Positions 3,508-8,712 of a stretch of 64,000 nucleotides of DNA are shown piece after piece; position 1 is the first letter of the stretch; each line of letters starts with the position of its first letter. The notes under the pieces were generated by a model. It was not told the origin of the DNA, did no database searches, and saw only the letters and a list, made by a program, of their open reading frames with translations. This DNA comes from Comamonas testosteroni (GTDB lineage: Bacteria > Pseudomonadota > Gammaproteobacteria > Burkholderiales > Burkholderiaceae_C): assembly GCF_003569915.1 (NCBI RefSeq), contig NZ_KZ984439.1, positions 248,001 to 312,000 on the forward strand. Direction: 5' to 3'. A program made the position numbers and the translations under genes.

Positions 3508-4626
3508 TCAGTCCTCATCCATCATGCGCGCCGCCGGGTTGTTCAAGGCCGTATCGGCGCGGAAGTAGCCCAGCACCGTTGCCACGCTGTGGTGGCCGGT
3601 CAGCGCCATGGTGTCGGGCAAGGGAATATTGCGCCGCCCGGCCTCCGTCACAAAGCCCGATCTCAGCGAGTGCGCAGAAAAATCGCCTTCCACGCCCGCC
3701 AGCTCGCAGCGCTGCTTGACGATATTGCGCACGGCCGCCGGGCTCAAAGGCTCGGCCACATGGCCACCCTTGCGGATACGCCGAAAAATCGGCCCCTCCA
3801 CAATCTGAGCGGCCTGCAGCCAGGCCTTGAGCGCCTCTGCGGCGCGGCCCGTCACCGGCTTGTTGTTTTCCGGGGCGTCTGTGCCGCTCTGGTTGGTCTT
3901 GCTATGGGCTAGCGTGTAGATAAATTCGCAGTCACCCGACTTGCTGTCCATGGCGCGCAGATAACGCATATCCGCAGCCGCCACTTCAGAGCGCCGCCGT
4001 CCACCGCTCGCCCAGGCAAACAGCAGCAAGGCCCGGTCACGCACACCGCGCAGGCTATCGTCACAGGTGGCCAGCAGTTCCTCCAGCACATCACGGGTCA
4101 GTGCTTCTTTTTTCTGCGGTAACTCCCCCCGGCGTGCATAGGCCTTGCGGGTGCGCGACATCAGCTCCTTGACTGCGCCATCCTGGCAAGGGTTGACCAG
4201 CGCATGCACCTGGTGCGCCTTGGACATCACCGCCATCCGGTGCACCAGCGTGTTGTGGGAAGGCGGCCCCTTTTTCCCCTTGTAGCCCGCCGCGACCAGC
4301 GCCTCATCCACTTCGGCAGGCATCTCGCTTTGCAGACCGGTACCGGTCTGGCGCTCGGCATGGTCAATGATGAACTGCAGCACCGTCGCCACGCTCAGCG
4401 GCAACTGCATAGGCTGGCCCAGGCGCAACACATGCCAGGCTGCCCAATAGCGCATGGCGCTCTGGTAACTGCTGCGGGTATTGGCGGACTCGCCTTCGTG
4501 CATCAGCTCCTTGATCGCCGCATGCGCCTGCGGAGCCAGAGCTTGCATCGGGCCTGCAGGCATGGGCAGTTCATCGGCCTCAAAAGCAACCGGGGTAGGG
4601 AAGAGGGCAGGCTTGCGGAAATCCAT
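3508..4626 (-). CDS. Tyrosine recombinase/integrase
   Basis: The 372-residue protein has a SAM-like N-terminal domain (about 40-170) and a catalytic domain. A complete active site is visible: Arg in GGRRRSE (about 211), Lys in HSKTN (243), HSLR (His319, Arg322), His345 in TGHHSV and the nucleophile Tyr354 in GYFRA. I chose ATG 4626 (MDFRKP) because AAGGGA lies upstream; a longer frame to 4731 has no support. It is divergent from the KfrA-like gene across an A+T-rich control region. It may be an integrase of a mobile element or a resolvase-type partner of KfrA; no attachment repeats for it were found. Confidence 0.85.
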   Translation of the reverse strand: MDFRKPALFPTPVAFEADELPMPAGPMQALAPQAHAAIKELMHEGESANTRSSYQSAMRYWAAWHVLRLGQPMQLPLSVATVLQFIIDHAERQTGTGLQSEMPAEVDEALVAAGYKGKKGPPSHNTLVHRMAVMSKAHQVHALVNPCQDGAVKELMSRTRKAYARRGELPQKKEALTRDVLEELLATCDDSLRGVRDRALLLFAWASGGRRRSEVAAADMRYLRAMDSKSGDCEFIYTLAHSKTNQSGTDAPENNKPVTGRAAEALKAWLQAAQIVEGPIFRRIRKGGHVAEPLSPAAVRNIVKQRCELAGVEGDFSAHSLRSGFVTEAGRRNIPLPDTMALTGHHSVATVLGYFRADTALNNPAARMMDED

Positions 4627-5090
4627 GACGCTATTGTCCCTTGCTTGGTACAGCGCGATCTGCGGCGTCGGATGTTTTTGCCATCTGGCCCATCCCGGCG
4701 GCTTTCTGCCACTTCGGCGCGCGCCGGTCATTCAGCGGGCTAGCTGAGCCGCGATCTCTGCGATTTCTACAAAGCAATGCGCACCTGGCCCATGCGCAGG
4801 TCATGCCGCAGTTCTCAGTATCCGTGGCCGCACGCGCATCGATCGATGGGCTCTGACGCTTGATCAAAAGACTGGAGTCTTCAATCCGGTCTGAATTCAA
4901 TTTTTTTACAAGCCAAGGCCCGTAAAGGCCGAAATCTGGCTCCAAGGCCGAAAAAACGCAGTAATGTACGTTTTCATCTGTATGAAAATTTCATACGTAA
5001 TATTTAATACGTTAGATGTATTGTGTATTACATTGATAATTAATAAATCACGATAACAATCACTTATCGTTAGTAAAATAGACTTTAGAT
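4627..5090. promoter_or_regulatory. Divergent control region between recombinase and KfrA-like gene
   Basis: This 464-bp gap becomes markedly A+T-rich after 4960. It contains three palindromic elements (4980-5033, listed separately) that probably hold the promoters and operators of both genes. The first half (4740-4960) shows nothing I can name. Confidence 0.5.
4980..5033. promoter_or_regulatory. Palindrome cluster, probable KfrA-type operators
   Basis: There is a perfect 8-1-8 palindrome, GTATGAAA-A-TTTCATAC (4980-4996). Two 18-bp inverted repeats of identical design follow: ACGTA-N8-TACGT (4995-5012) and ATGTA-N8-TACAT (5016-5033). The centres of the last two are 21 bp apart, two helical turns. 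KfrA of plasmid RK2 is known to repress its own promoter through a palindromic operator, so autoregulation is inferred. Confidence 0.5.
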
Positions 5091-6086
5091 ATGAATACAG
5101 CCAAAACAACGTCCAGAGGTGTGCAGGAGGCCGATGTCTGGGCTGCAGCAGACGCTTTGATCGCCCAGGGCCTGCGCCCAACCATTGAGCGCGTGCGCCA
5201 GCACATTGGCCGAGGCTCGCCCAATACCGTCAGTCCGATGTTGGAAACCTGGTTTGCCACGCTGGGTCGCAGGCTGGGCGTAGCCGGAGAGCAAGACCCA
5301 GCAGTGCTGCAATCCGTGCCAGACCCTGTGCAACGCATGGCTCAGGAGTTATGGGAAACAGCGCAGGAAGAAGCCAAAGCCGCAGCCAGCGCTGTTCTTG
5401 CCCAACGCGAAGAAGCGCTGAGAAATTCCGAGCAGGACTTGCAGGGGCAAAAAGATCAGATTGCCCAGCGCGAGGCCACCATGCAGGCGCAAAAAGAGGC
5501 CATGAATCAGGCCTTGCAGGCCGCCCAGGCACAGGCGCAGGACTTGGCGCGCCGCCTTGATGAAATGCAGCAACAACTGCAGGATCGGGATCAGCGTCTG
5601 CAAGAGCTCCGTGACGAACTGAGCCAGGCAGTTCGCCAACGTGAGCAGCAGCAGCACAAGCACAGCGAAGAAATCCAGGCCGCTGCTGCAGAGCGCCAGC
5701 GCATGGCAGAGCAATATGCGGGCAATGAACGCCACATGCTCCACGAAGTCGATCGTGCTCGCCAGGAGCTAGCAACCGCACGCAAGAGCCAACAGGAGCA
5801 GGAGCGCAAGTCGGAAGCCAGATATCAGGAGCTGTTGGGTCGTTTTGAGCAGTCCGAGCAAGACATCCTGAATCTGCATGCGCAGTTGCAAACGGCGCAA
5901 AACACTGCAGCATTGGCTCAGGAGCGTGCAGCGGACCTAAAAAGCTTGCTGGATGCCCAGCAGCGTCTGGCTTCCGTTGCCAGCACAGGTCAGGAAGTTC
6001 AAACCATCGCCGCACAACCGCGCCGAAGTACTTTGGCCACCACGCGCAGATCCATCAACCGCAATCGTGGGCGTTCTCTGCGTTGA
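5091..6086 (+). CDS. KfrA-like DNA-binding coiled-coil protein
   Basis: The 331-residue protein has an N-terminal KfrA_N DNA-binding domain (about 8-70, VWAAADALIAQGLRPTIERVRQHIGRGSPNTV in segments) and then a very long Gln/Glu/Ala-rich coiled coil (about 85-300). It ends in a basic tail, RRSINRNRGRSLR. KfrA proteins are plasmid-borne repressors and partition accessories that multimerise through the coiled coil. Here it sits beside a recombinase and a dif-like site, so a chromosomal or element-maintenance role is possible. ATG 5091 has no strong ribosome binding site. A palindrome cluster lies upstream. Confidence 0.82.
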   Translation: MNTAKTTSRGVQEADVWAAADALIAQGLRPTIERVRQHIGRGSPNTVSPMLETWFATLGRRLGVAGEQDPAVLQSVPDPVQRMAQELWETAQEEAKAAASAVLAQREEALRNSEQDLQGQKDQIAQREATMQAQKEAMNQALQAAQAQAQDLARRLDEMQQQLQDRDQRLQELRDELSQAVRQREQQQHKHSEEIQAAAAERQRMAEQYAGNERHMLHEVDRARQELATARKSQQEQERKSEARYQELLGRFEQSEQDILNLHAQLQTAQNTAALAQERAADLKSLLDAQQRLASVASTGQEVQTIAAQPRRSTLATTRRSINRNRGRSLR

Positions 6087-6112
6087 ATCAGCAGAGTTTG
6101 CTTGTGCGCCTG

Positions 6113-6261
6113 AATCGTAGTTATAGAAGCTTCGTACAGGCGTGCAGATCCATGCTGAGACCGATAATGGACTGGAAGTTGCGAGCAAGCTGGAGGCGGG
6201 TCTCAGGGTCGTGACGCCTGAAGCTCAGCTTCTATTTTACTAGATACGATGTATCAGGCAT
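6113..6261 (-). pseudogene. Remnant of an xafT (VC1465-family) gene
   Basis: Reading leftwards from ATG 6261, the frame gives MPDTSYLVK, a TAG stop at 6234-6232, then in the same frame KLSFRRHDPETRLQLARNF and SMDLHACTKLL before another stop. This aligns codon by codon with the 5' part of the intact xafT gene (7520-8086), apart from one missing codon. The repeat offset is 1,831 bp near the junction and 1,828 bp further left. Nothing homologous remains left of about 6125. I read it as the surviving 5' end of an earlier, mostly deleted neighbouring element. Confidence 0.72.
6239..6255 (+). other. Left attachment junction: XerC-arm plus central region, no XerD arm
   Basis: ACTAGATACGA plus TGTATC matches the XerC arm and central hexamer of the right site (8070-8086) at 16 of 17 bases. 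The following AGGCATTATCT bears no resemblance to a XerD arm. A partner site lacking a XerD arm is what is described for the attachment site of TLC-phi of Vibrio cholerae. Confidence 0.65.
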
Positions 6262-6514
6262 TATCTGGACTCCCCGAGATAATAATCTTCATCAGCGAAT
6301 AAATAAACCCTATTTAACCCCCGTTGAGGATTTATTTTCAGGGTTTCTTGTTTATCAGGACGCGCACGGCCGCTCCGTTGATTCAACGGAAGTTAATCGC
6401 GGATATCGCCAGTGGTTAATCGACGGCAGTCGGGTTTCGCTTCGCTACATCAGGGGCTACGCCCCCGATACCCCCTGGAGTGCTGCGATCGCGTGAATCA
6501 CTCAAACCAACCTG
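6256..6514. other. Hairpin-rich non-coding left end of the IMEX
   Basis: The stretch holds ATTATCT/AGATAAT arms (6260-6266, 6277-6283) and a long-loop pair AAACCCT/AGGGTTT (6305-6346). It also holds a perfect 8-1-8 palindrome TCCGTTGA-T-TCAACGGA (6374-6390), a GTTAATCG direct repeat, and GGGGC/GCCCC (6453-6465). Such clusters suit a single-strand or replication origin plus the promoter for the leftward operon in the circular form; that role is inference. Confidence 0.4.
6259..6275 (-). promoter_or_regulatory. Detached ribosome binding site and start codon of xafT
   Basis: On the minus strand GGGGAG (6275-6270), an 8-base spacer and ATG (6261-6259) precede CCT-GAT-ACA-TCG-TAT-CTA. In a circle joining 6255 and 8086 this ATG runs in frame into the xafT body with no stop. 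In the integrated state the body instead meets TAA at 8089-8087. Confidence 0.65.
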
Positions 6515-6751
6515 TCACACCCCCGTGGCCTCAAACGCGGCAAGACCCAGAGAGGCTGCGATCCCCATGTTTTCCAACCAAGCTTCAACCTCCCGAGCCT
6601 GAGGACGCTGATCTGCCTTGGCAGGGGCCAGCAGGAGCGCTGCGCCTTGCTGCAGTTGGAGCAACGAATCCTTGCTCAACTGGTTTTTCTGAGCGTCAGC
6701 AACGACATTCGACCACGCGGCTTGAGCCGCCTTAAAATTTTCAGTAGCCAT
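6515..6751 (-). CDS. Small element protein, 78 residues, unknown
   Basis: The start MATENF at 6751 follows an excellent AAAGGA site, six bases away, so the frame is well supported. The protein is Ala/Gln-rich with a helical pattern (SNVVADAQKNQLSKD, LLQLQQGAALLLAPAKA) and no signal peptide or clear membrane segment. It is the last gene of the element's leftward operon. I do not recognise a family. Size and position would suit a phage accessory or structural protein, but nothing in the sequence proves it. Confidence 0.6.
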   Translation of the reverse strand: MATENFKAAQAAWSNVVADAQKNQLSKDSLLQLQQGAALLLAPAKADQRPQAREVEAWLENMGIAASLGLAAFEATGV

Positions 6752-6785
6752 TTCAGTTCCTTTCAACTGCTTTTGGTTAGGGGCG

Positions 6786-6929
6786 TCAGGTGGCTGTAAC
6801 ACCGAGCGGCCCCGCTTGAACAACACATTCCTGAGGCAAGCAAGCCCCAGAAGAAGAGGGCATCACACCTGCGAGGTGCAAGGCCAAGGCCACCGCAAAG
6901 GCCAGAGCATCAAGATCATTGCGGTCCAT
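6786..6929 (-). CDS. Small hydrophobic element protein, 47 residues
   Basis: ATG 6929 overlaps the end of the preceding 217-residue gene by 14 bases, which suggests translational coupling. Residues about 8-22 (ALAFAVALALHLAGV) are hydrophobic enough for one membrane segment, followed by a Ser/Cys/Gly-rich tail. Small one-span proteins are common in filamentous phages, so a coat or assembly role is conceivable but unproven. No clear ribosome binding site; it depends on coupling if real. Confidence 0.45.
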   Translation of the reverse strand: MDRNDLDALAFAVALALHLAGVMPSSSGACLPQECVVQAGPLGVTAT

Positions 6930-7569
6930 CAGACGACACACTCTGACCGAACATAGGTAGACGCAAAGCTGTCTTCTTGACCTCATTCAGGTACCAGCCG
7001 TCCTGAGCCCTGGACAACCGGTCAACAAGCAGGTCCTTGAGGTCATCCATGACGCCACAAACCATGTGCGCCATGGTGGCAAACGCTGCATCCTGGTCGC
7101 CATCACGCACAGCCTTCAGCTGCTTAATGGAAGGCTTACCAGCCACACCCATCTCCTTAAAGAACCATTGAACGTCCCGCGCGGCTGCATGCCAGCGAAC
7201 ACATTCCTCCAAAACATCGGCATCATCAGGATCACCCCAGTTGAAGGTCGTAAACGTAGTAGGGGGCGGCAGGATCAAAAGCTCGCCTTGCCGCACCAGC
7301 TCTGAGGCCATGTTGGACGACATGTCACGGAGCATGGACGCTGTCAGTCGAAGACGCTTCCACTCAGCTGAGTTCAGCTCGACGGCATCAGCCATAGACT
7401 GGAGCATTGGCAGCAGCACGTCCGTCGCCTTCACATAGATTCGAACGCCTTGGAGGAACCGAGGATTCGCCAGCTGCGACAACTCCTCAAAGCGGCCGGT
7501 CTTCTTGCTGCGCTTGACCTTATCGCCGGGCATAGGCCATCCCATGACGAATTTCATATGACGGGACAC
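6916..7569 (-). CDS. Element protein of unknown function, 217 residues
   Basis: The preferred start is GTG 7569 because GGGGAG lies eight bases upstream; ATG 7557 is the alternative. It overlaps the 3' end of xafT by 50 bases and the next small gene by 14, a tightly packed phage-like arrangement. The protein is soluble, mixed helical, with clusters SKKTGRFEELSQLANPRF near the N terminus and an acidic/aromatic middle (FNWGDPDDADVLEECVRW). I see no replication-initiator, zonula-occludens or capsid motif and cannot name a family. Confidence 0.65.
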   Translation of the reverse strand: MSRHMKFVMGWPMPGDKVKRSKKTGRFEELSQLANPRFLQGVRIYVKATDVLLPMLQSMADAVELNSAEWKRLRLTASMLRDMSSNMASELVRQGELLILPPPTTFTTFNWGDPDDADVLEECVRWHAAARDVQWFFKEMGVAGKPSIKQLKAVRDGDQDAAFATMAHMVCGVMDDLKDLLVDRLSRAQDGWYLNEVKKTALRLPMFGQSVSSDGPQ

Positions 7570-7999
7570 CGTACGATCTCCCCGTGATTACCAAGGGGGA
7601 TGGAAGGAGACGCGCGCCCAGCGCAACGGCTGCGGCGCTCCGCTGGCCTGCTGCCGCTTGCGCTTGGGCGCTGGCTTCACGCTCACGCACTTGCATCACA
7701 GCTGCTCGCAACTTCTCTTGAAACTCGCTGCACATCCTTGCTTGCAGGGTCAGCCGCCCCCACCAAGCACTGTCGGTACCCTCAAACGTACGCCCCTCCG
7801 GCGATATCAGCTTGCCGCCATGGAAGCACCAACCTTGCCAAGTTCGACCCGGCAGTTCCATACGGTTAAGCAAGCGCAGCAGCCTGTACGTTGCATACGG
7901 GATGTCATGCTTGCCGGTCTCCCAATTATGTACAGTCCTGGTCGACACATGAAGAAACTTCGCGCACGCAGGCAGATCCATGCCCAGGCTTCTGTACAT
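7520..7999 (-). CDS. xafT: XafT-like Xer recombination activation factor (VC1465 family), 5' end detached by integration
   Basis: From ATG 7999 it encodes 159 residues that match, as I recall the family, VC1465-type Xer activators: MDLPACAKFLHVSTRTVHNWETG (a Cro-like helix-turn-helix), LLRLLNRMELPG, WCFHGGKL and an Ala/Gln-rich basic tail. The frame stays open upstream to 8086 and encodes KKKFGQRRHDRDTRSQL, which is conserved in the neighbouring remnant. It has no start codon there and ends in TAA at the XerD arm. In the circular element the missing start would come from 6259-6275, giving about 190 residues. XafT of TLC-phi activates XerD-first recombination at dif. Confidence 0.75.
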   Translation of the reverse strand: MYRSLGMDLPACAKFLHVSTRTVHNWETGKHDIPYATYRLLRLLNRMELPGRTWQGWCFHGGKLISPEGRTFEGTDSAWWGRLTLQARMCSEFQEKLRAAVMQVREREASAQAQAAAGQRSAAAVALGARLLPSPLVITGRSYGVPSYEIRHGMAYARR

Positions 8000-8067
8000 G
8001 GAGCGGAAATTCTGAGCAAGCTGGGAGCGGGTATCACGGTCGTGACGCCTCTGTCCGAACTTCTTCT

Positions 8068-8712
8068 TTAGTAGATACGATGTATCTTATGTTTAATTAA
8101 TGATCGGTACGGGCTCCAGTTAACACCGTTCTCTGCGCAATGGCCCTTGAATTGGGCATCGAACGCACGCCGGGCACGAATGTGCTCGTTTGCGCAGTCA
8201 ACGGTTGCCGGGTCACGCTGACAAGCGGCAGAAGGCTTGTAGTAGCTTTCCCAGGCCGCCGCTTTTCGGGCTTGATACTGCTTTTCAAGGACTGCCGTGC
8301 GATCCTGTGCTGCGAGGGCATCACCTAATGCTTTTGCTCTTTCAAGCTCTGCCTGATTTTTCTGCTCGTTTTTCAACGCCTGTTGGTGTGCGATCTGACT
8401 GGCGATGAGTTGCTGTTCGCGCATCTGTTCGGCGGCCTGTTGCGCAATCGCCTCCAGTTGCTTTAATGCCCGATGTTCTTGCCAGGCACGGAACCCAAGA
8501 GTCAGCGCGGCAACAATGACCGCAAGACCAAGCACCCAGGACCAGAATCTAAGAATGTCTTCACTACCAAAATTGGTGCTGTTCCGAGCCGTAAAAGTCT
8601 GGCCACTACTGCCTTGATTGAGTTCATCTTCACGCCAATGGGTCGGGTCAATGCGCCCCGCTTCCTGTGCCCTCTTCCAGTCGCGCAAGTAGTCACGGTC
8701 TTGTATGCCCAT
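8068..8712 (-). CDS. Membrane-anchored hypothetical protein with coiled coil
   Basis: The 214-residue protein starts MGIQDRDYLRDW at ATG 8712 with AGGAGG four bases upstream. One membrane segment (about residues 56-75) is followed by an Ala/Gln/Glu-rich coiled coil (about 80-150) and a C-terminal domain with two Cys-containing segments (SAACQRDPATVDCANEH). The last codons (KHKIHRIY and the stop) are encoded by the dif-like site itself. It is tandem with the next DUF4124-like gene upstream, so they may form a leftward unit. Family unknown to me. Confidence 0.72.
   Translation of the reverse strand: MGIQDRDYLRDWKRAQEAGRIDPTHWREDELNQGSSGQTFTARNSTNFGSEDILRFWSWVLGLAVIVAALTLGFRAWQEHRALKQLEAIAQQAAEQMREQQLIASQIAHQQALKNEQKNQAELERAKALGDALAAQDRTAVLEKQYQARKAAAWESYYKPSAACQRDPATVDCANEHIRARRAFDAQFKGHCAENGVNWSPYRSLIKHKIHRIY
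8070..8097 (+). other. dif-like site / right attachment junction
   Basis: The XerC-arm position is AGTAGATACGA (weak match to the usual arm), the central region TGTATC (5/6 to the E. coli hexamer) and the XerD arm TTATGTTTAAT (10/11 to E. coli dif). I interpret it as the host XerD arm joined to the element's own XerC half, that is, the integrated form of chromosomal dif. If right, the replication terminus is here. Confidence 0.62.

Follow-up and report, generated by a model that had tools for sequence, protein, structure and literature searches.

The window analysed here is a stretch of 64,000 nucleotides from Comamonas testosteroni (assembly GCF_003569915.1, contig NZ_KZ984439.1, positions 248,001 to 312,000), and the coordinates below are those of the window unless stated otherwise. 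At 6256..8086 it contains an integrated element of 1,831 bp, to which no strand is assigned, delimited by two Xer cores and carrying a gene of the Xer activation factor family, xafT, whose start and body lie at opposite ends. The site of insertion is dif, the bacterial chromosome resolution site. The right attachment site (attR, 8070..8097, plus strand) consists of the element's XerC arm (8070-8080), the central region TGTATC (8081-8086) and the host XerD arm (8087-8097, TTATGTTTAAT), and it matches at 12 of 12 positions in the core and at 10 of 11 in the XerD arm. The left one (attL, 6239..6266, plus strand) matches equally well in the core (12 of 12), keeps the XerC arm and the central region (TGTATC at 6250-6255) and has a degenerate XerD arm (AGGCATTATCT, 4 of 11).

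The extent of the element is given by the core spacing of 1,831 bp and by the single dif of G128, a genome of the same genus without xafT match. We conclude that the element is inserted at the chromosomal dif because the window holds the sole dif match of its genome, the skew changes nearby, and G128 has a dif with homologous flanks. The dif pattern (up to 3 mismatches allowed) was matched once in the 4.94-Mb genome, at 8075-8097 and without mismatch, and each of the 11 same-genus genomes tested has exactly one match (up to 2 mismatches). On the 387-kb contig, cumulative GC skew has its maximum at 245,754, some 10 kb from dif at 256,086, and the best single change point of the skew lies near 236 kb, about 20 kb from dif. 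The empty dif of G128 has the same 23 bases as that of the window. DNA homologous to the two window flanks starts about 175 bases (left) and about 280 bases (right) from it, and the right flank of the window contains extra DNA relative to G128.

The body of xafT occupies 7520..8086 on the minus strand and comprises 188 codons and a stop, without a start of its own. It codes for a helix-turn-helix (HTH) and DUF3653 (PF12375, E 4e-8), and read alone it reaches 101.5 bits with NF040522, "VC1465 family Xer recombination activation factor" (cut-off 70). The first-pass annotation of this DNA had claimed that the frame stays open to 8086 and that no start lies upstream of the ATG at 7997..7999 (minus strand), and both claims are confirmed by the letters. 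The codon that follows the open stretch is an in-frame TAA (8087..8089, minus strand), the first codon of the host XerD arm. The ATG at 7999, from which the protein would begin MYRSLG, is the first ATG, GTG or TTG of the integrated frame, 28 codons in, and no Shine-Dalgarno-like run stands in the preceding 18 bases. The separated start had been located at the left end, and it is indeed there: an ATG at 6259..6261 (minus strand) is followed in the body frame by CCT GAT ACA TCG TAT CTA, and GGGGAG, which resembles a ribosome-binding site, stands eight bases before it (6270..6275, minus strand). Further left, at 6109..6255 on the minus strand, the predicted remnant of a second xafT was also recovered. 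It corresponds to the start region at 57% identity and, containing one TAG and one TAA, is a dead copy.

At the level of the family, 21 of 399 genomes contain a homologue of xafT, and in the genus 10 of 53 do; the family model gave 15 of 399 for the order and 9 of 369 for the class (source genome counted in each). Further homologues came from 23 named contigs and from 8 viral contigs, two of them weak; the latter were obtained by an alignment scan, after a first scan of viral contigs for homologues had given none. These sets (genomes, named contigs, viral contigs) overlap. A divergent XafT query retrieved records of Xanthomonas, Stenotrophomonas and Vibrio, all below 60% identity. As to free circles, the window protein had no match among plasmids or phages. 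Eight matches of a 16-base left-end motif in viral contigs were judged to be about chance and were not used.

Conserved domain, core and frame were located by script in the locus of each relative. We kept 36 right ends at dif, window included, with a left partner core for 22 of them, and 25 left-type junctions from 22 loci, three loci having two junctions each. Dropped were duplicates (L056, L058, L067, L068, L110, L111), internal second copies as right ends, distant cores (L064, L065, L070, L082, L085, L087), non-dif copies (L049, L112, L113), L057 and L059 (XerD arm absent), L116 (frameshifted) and matches without a recognised core, e.g. L118-L126. L066, which has a frameshift, entered the counts in its upstream frame, and L163, L164, L166 and L167 stand outside both counts. 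Three partner candidates (at 7108 in L049, 12337 in L050 and 12355 in L039) were discarded as probable chance matches.

The split layout recurs in many relatives in other genomes, as had been anticipated, and it is not universal. All three frames of the core are in use at the 36 right ends (TSY in 25, IHR in 8, YIVS in 3), and in 31 of them a stop within the XerD arm ends the body frame, because this arm reads TAA in two of its three frames and leaves the third open. The remaining five are three copies in the frame denoted f1 and two with a variant XerD arm. In YIVS-frame copies (L054, P0014, P0019, P0035) the XerD arm is open, and some of the listed proteins have N-terminal extensions which may derive from flanking DNA.

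At the left, an in-frame start codon lies no more than 9 codons upstream at 24 of 25 junctions (22 ATG, 2 GTG). The other two frames have any start codon at 8 and 4 junctions and an ATG at 1 and 4. This bias of ATG towards the body frame (pooled Fisher P 3e-11) is beyond chance, and P is 6e-10 when the window and two near-duplicates (the second junction of L041, and L051) are removed; kinship among the rest is ignored in this figure, which involves no tree. The start peptides, 2-9 codons long, are varied (MPD, MTY, MAY, MSY, MKSTSCIN, MVPDDYAC, VSKKTKKK and others); therefore it is position and frame that are conserved, not the letters.

Tandem arrays present a natural control. Where one copy is followed by another in the same frame, the internal junction should rejoin start and body, and a complete open reading frame (ORF) is found at four of six such junctions, in agreement with the expectation of the first-pass annotation that tandem copies restore full-length xafT. 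These ORFs code for 218 (L039), 316 (L040), 300 (L041) and 368 (L164) amino acids, and three of the four pass the NF040522 cut-off of 70 bits, L040 having 68.6. The junction of L048 is open for 33 codons, to the end of its contig. In L164, the array contains two identical units of 1,958 bp each. From the recurrence of the split and the restored ORFs we infer that a complete xafT is present only on the circle or across a tandem junction.

Listed proteins give a similar picture. The first-pass annotation had asked whether family members begin at an MPDTSY-like position, and 12 of 120 homologues do begin with M and up to 3 residues, followed by YTS[YHW] or YIVS (MPYTSY-, MAYTSY-, MSYTSY- or YIVS-like starts). 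Eleven of these 12 proteins have longest contigs of 0.7-2.1 kb and the twelfth has one of 3.2 kb, i.e. about one element. Such core-bearing starts occur in 11 of 56 proteins from contigs of at most 2.2 kb vs none of the 27 whose longest contig is at least 10 kb (Fisher P 0.014). Starts at MYRSLG or MYRNLG are listed for 14 of the same 27 and for 55 of 120 overall, short contigs too.

The codons which such an internal start would skip are constrained. Across nine sequences, codons 6-27, which precede the internal Met, have a ratio of nonsynonymous to synonymous changes (pN/pS) of 0.59 in frame (bootstrap 0.37-0.95) vs 1.56 and 1.06 in the shifted frames, which points to purifying selection in the body frame only. 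An AlphaFold2 model of P0012, a complete homologue, has a mean pLDDT of 68 and block means above 90 across residues 21-70; its HTH helix 1 covers residues 19-35. The conserved internal Met is residue 32, so a product begun there would lack most of this predicted helix. A structure search gave weak HTH matches only (best E 0.054).

The left end also harbors candidate control sites. An inverted repeat ATTATCT-N10-AGATAAT (6260..6283, minus strand) encloses the ribosome site and extends into the ATG; it may be an operator or an accessory site of the element's own attachment site (attP). Among 27 left ends, it has no mismatch in the window, L028, L052, L055 and L167, one in L048 and L112, two in L164, and at least 4 in the remaining 19. 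Another motif, GAA-N5-TTC, is present at 17 of the 27 left ends, vs a mean of 0.9 and a maximum of 4 in 200 shuffles. Its distance from the core is 33-37 bases at 16 of these ends and 46 bases at the other; the window has GAA-N5-TTA in its place. That the repeat or the motif might bind XafT is a guess. In the window at 6262-6520 and at the left ends of relatives lies a region with a CAGG-GCGCGA motif, which can be aligned between many of the elements and is a possible replication origin.

Besides xafT, the element contains ORFs of 217 (6916..7569) and 103 amino acids (6515..6826), both on the minus strand and both without a significant result in the family search. No significant replication family was found among the scanned ORFs of the element. 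Because it shows no replication domain, the element probably depends on a helper and is satellite-like. The helper phage marker Zot had no match in the source genome, which has four PF23343-like places. Two matches of the G2P-type replication domain elsewhere in the genome (G000:C4:105541-107842) may belong to a helper or a plasmid. Among 26 measured element units (1.2-2.7 kb), the xafT-like ORF is the only one common to all. L029, L062 and L112 have a further ORF in common, and the two tested, L062 and L112, contain the G2P-type replication domain (PF23343) in it.

Left of dif, at 3508-6086, the window contains a tyrosine recombinase-like gene (minus strand) and a KfrA-like gene (plus strand), and DNA of the latter is retained beside the empty dif of G128. 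L049 (Comamonas testosteroni JL40), L112 and L113 (same genus) have a flank in common at a site which is not dif, and in these genomes dif is matched separately, at another place. The contig L165 is inovirus-like, with Zot at 82 bits and a G2P-type Rep at 92.8 bits, and at 5008-5382 it has a small HTH-like ORF beside a xafT body. The Xer core codes for the last residues of this ORF, KSRIHRI, and attP may there cut the 3´ end of a regulator.

We propose the following model. The window element would be a very small one of the TLC-phage kind; it would enter dif by means of host XerC and XerD and have its attP within the 5´ coding end of its own Xer activator gene. In the circular form, ribosome site and ATG would stand just ahead of the core and xafT would be complete. 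By analogy with XafT, its product would help XerD to act on an attP that lacks a good XerD arm. The crossover would then part the start and ribosome site, left at one end, from the body, left at the other end behind a stop codon that comes, in two of three frames, from the conserved XerD arm. Integration would thereby shut off full-length XafT and stabilise the insertion. The complete gene would return on an excised or replicated circle, or wherever copies of one frame meet inside a tandem array. We regard an integration-dependent off switch as the best reading of these sequences, which support the first-pass interpretation of the separated start as a built-in switch, and consider it probable that attP lies in the 5´ end of the activator gene and that integration turns off full-length XafT. 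To a broader version we would give about an even chance: a self-interrupting activator that reads the core in one of three frames depending on the element, uses the host XerD arm as its stop (supplied by the arm itself in two of these frames), is off when integrated and on only in circles and tandem arrays, and has a phased palindrome allowing XafT to bind attP and its own gene together.

The model can be compared with known systems. TLC phage is described as inserting at dif by a site whose XerC arm and central region are good and whose XerD arm is degenerate (summaries in PMC4246890, PMC5357621), and activation of XerD by XafT is indicated by the family name and by a passage in PMC9765430 which cites the primary work. 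To the integrative mobile elements exploiting Xer (IMEX) of the TLC-phage type with XafT from Vibrio cholerae, as so summarised, the window element is alike in dif insertion and arm pattern, and likewise in coding for a member of the VC1465-named family NF040522; it differs in having 1.8 kb without a recognisable replication gene. The position of attP in the 5´ coding end of the activator is put forward as a feature of the window element. Recombination of the TLC type is taken to be XerD-first and FtsK-independent, with help from XafT, and a replication module of its own also characterises that type. In mycobacteriophage BPs, attP lies inside a regulator gene, so integration alters the product and immunity depends on integration (abstract of PMC4557955). 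There, however, integration shortens the C-terminal end and renders a repressor stable and active, whereas the window xafT loses its start and belongs to a family of recombination activators, so that the window element is no case of attP in a repressor gene. In ICEKp1 and ICEclc, a recombination gene is driven from the opposite element end only when the ends are joined, which is said to favour integration over excision (abstract of PMC13023037). It is the promoter that changes in those elements, while in the window start codon and ribosome site are split from the body. The Xanthomonas filamentous phages phiLf (NC_073754) and Cf2 (NC_073752) are alike in that the annotated Xer/attP site lies inside an XRE-type HTH gene. 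They differ in that the HTH gene is a separate one and holds the site toward its 3´ part, with, in phiLf, a DUF3653-like stretch downstream in another frame. As far as the abstracts and records show, none of these systems removes the start codon of a recombination activator.

Several observations weigh against a switch of this kind. A Shine-Dalgarno-like string precedes 15 of the 24 left starts and is missing from the rest. The promoter scan found nothing near the left ATG of the window, its sole minus-strand match in the element being at 6766-6737 (two matches vs 0.9 expected). No left partner was found for 14 of 36 right ends, nor a credible one for L049 at its non-dif site, and the junction of L036 is the sole one without a left start, with an ATG inside its core. 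One same-frame tandem junction, that of L062, is broken (ORF of 80 amino acids only), and heterologous arrays (L029, L061, the second junction of L164) join the start to a following body that is read in a different frame. Early internal starts could rescue translation in some members: ATG at codon 3 (L029, L036), 5 (L062), 7 (L033) or 9 (L043), GTG at codon 9 (L040), and TTG at codon 1 (L039, L046, L069, L114), 6 (L054) or 8 (L061). Lastly, the first-pass annotation had named a start inside one end as the finding that would count against the split. The main group is split, but six distant NF040522 loci at dif, with ACATTATG cores, are not split like the window: L064, L065 and L070 have an ATG in the core and L082, L085 and L087 later starts inside the right end, so the objection holds in part, and for those relatives only.

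The off switch has to be weighed against simpler explanations. The element units are small and attP adjoins the gene, and its position at the gene border might follow from compactness alone; loss of the start would then be a neutral side effect and integrated copies silent passengers, and distant relatives do manage without the split. We hold this unlikely, since the split recurs with differing start peptides in three frames and the GAA-N5-TTC motif is phased at the left ends, although neither is proof of a selected switch. It might also be supposed that integrated copies go on producing XafT by initiating internally, at MYRSLG or at an earlier ATG, GTG or TTG, and that nothing is switched off. 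The many homologues on long contigs listed from MYRSLG or MYRNLG, and the several copies with a start within 9 codons of the core, agree with this view, which we nevertheless find quite improbable: the first start of the window lies deep in the frame without a Shine-Dalgarno-like run, and the codons it skips are under purifying selection and span most of the predicted helix 1. Finally, the left ATG could be unrelated to the body, or two elements could have been mis-joined, as the source is a draft of 92 contigs in which an exact tandem array could be collapsed; an apparent single copy in draft genomes may generally mask collapsed arrays. We give scarcely any credence to such an artefact, given the frame control at the left junctions and the same anatomy elsewhere, including L028 on a 5.45-Mb and L041 on a 4.39-Mb contig.

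If the proposed off switch is true, then Xer-exploiting elements would gain directional integration without a repressor, because recombination itself would remove the activator. It would also mean that chromosomal annotations of XafT often begin the protein at an internal start. We further suggest that, among the integrated forms of these elements, it may be the tandem arrays that are active.

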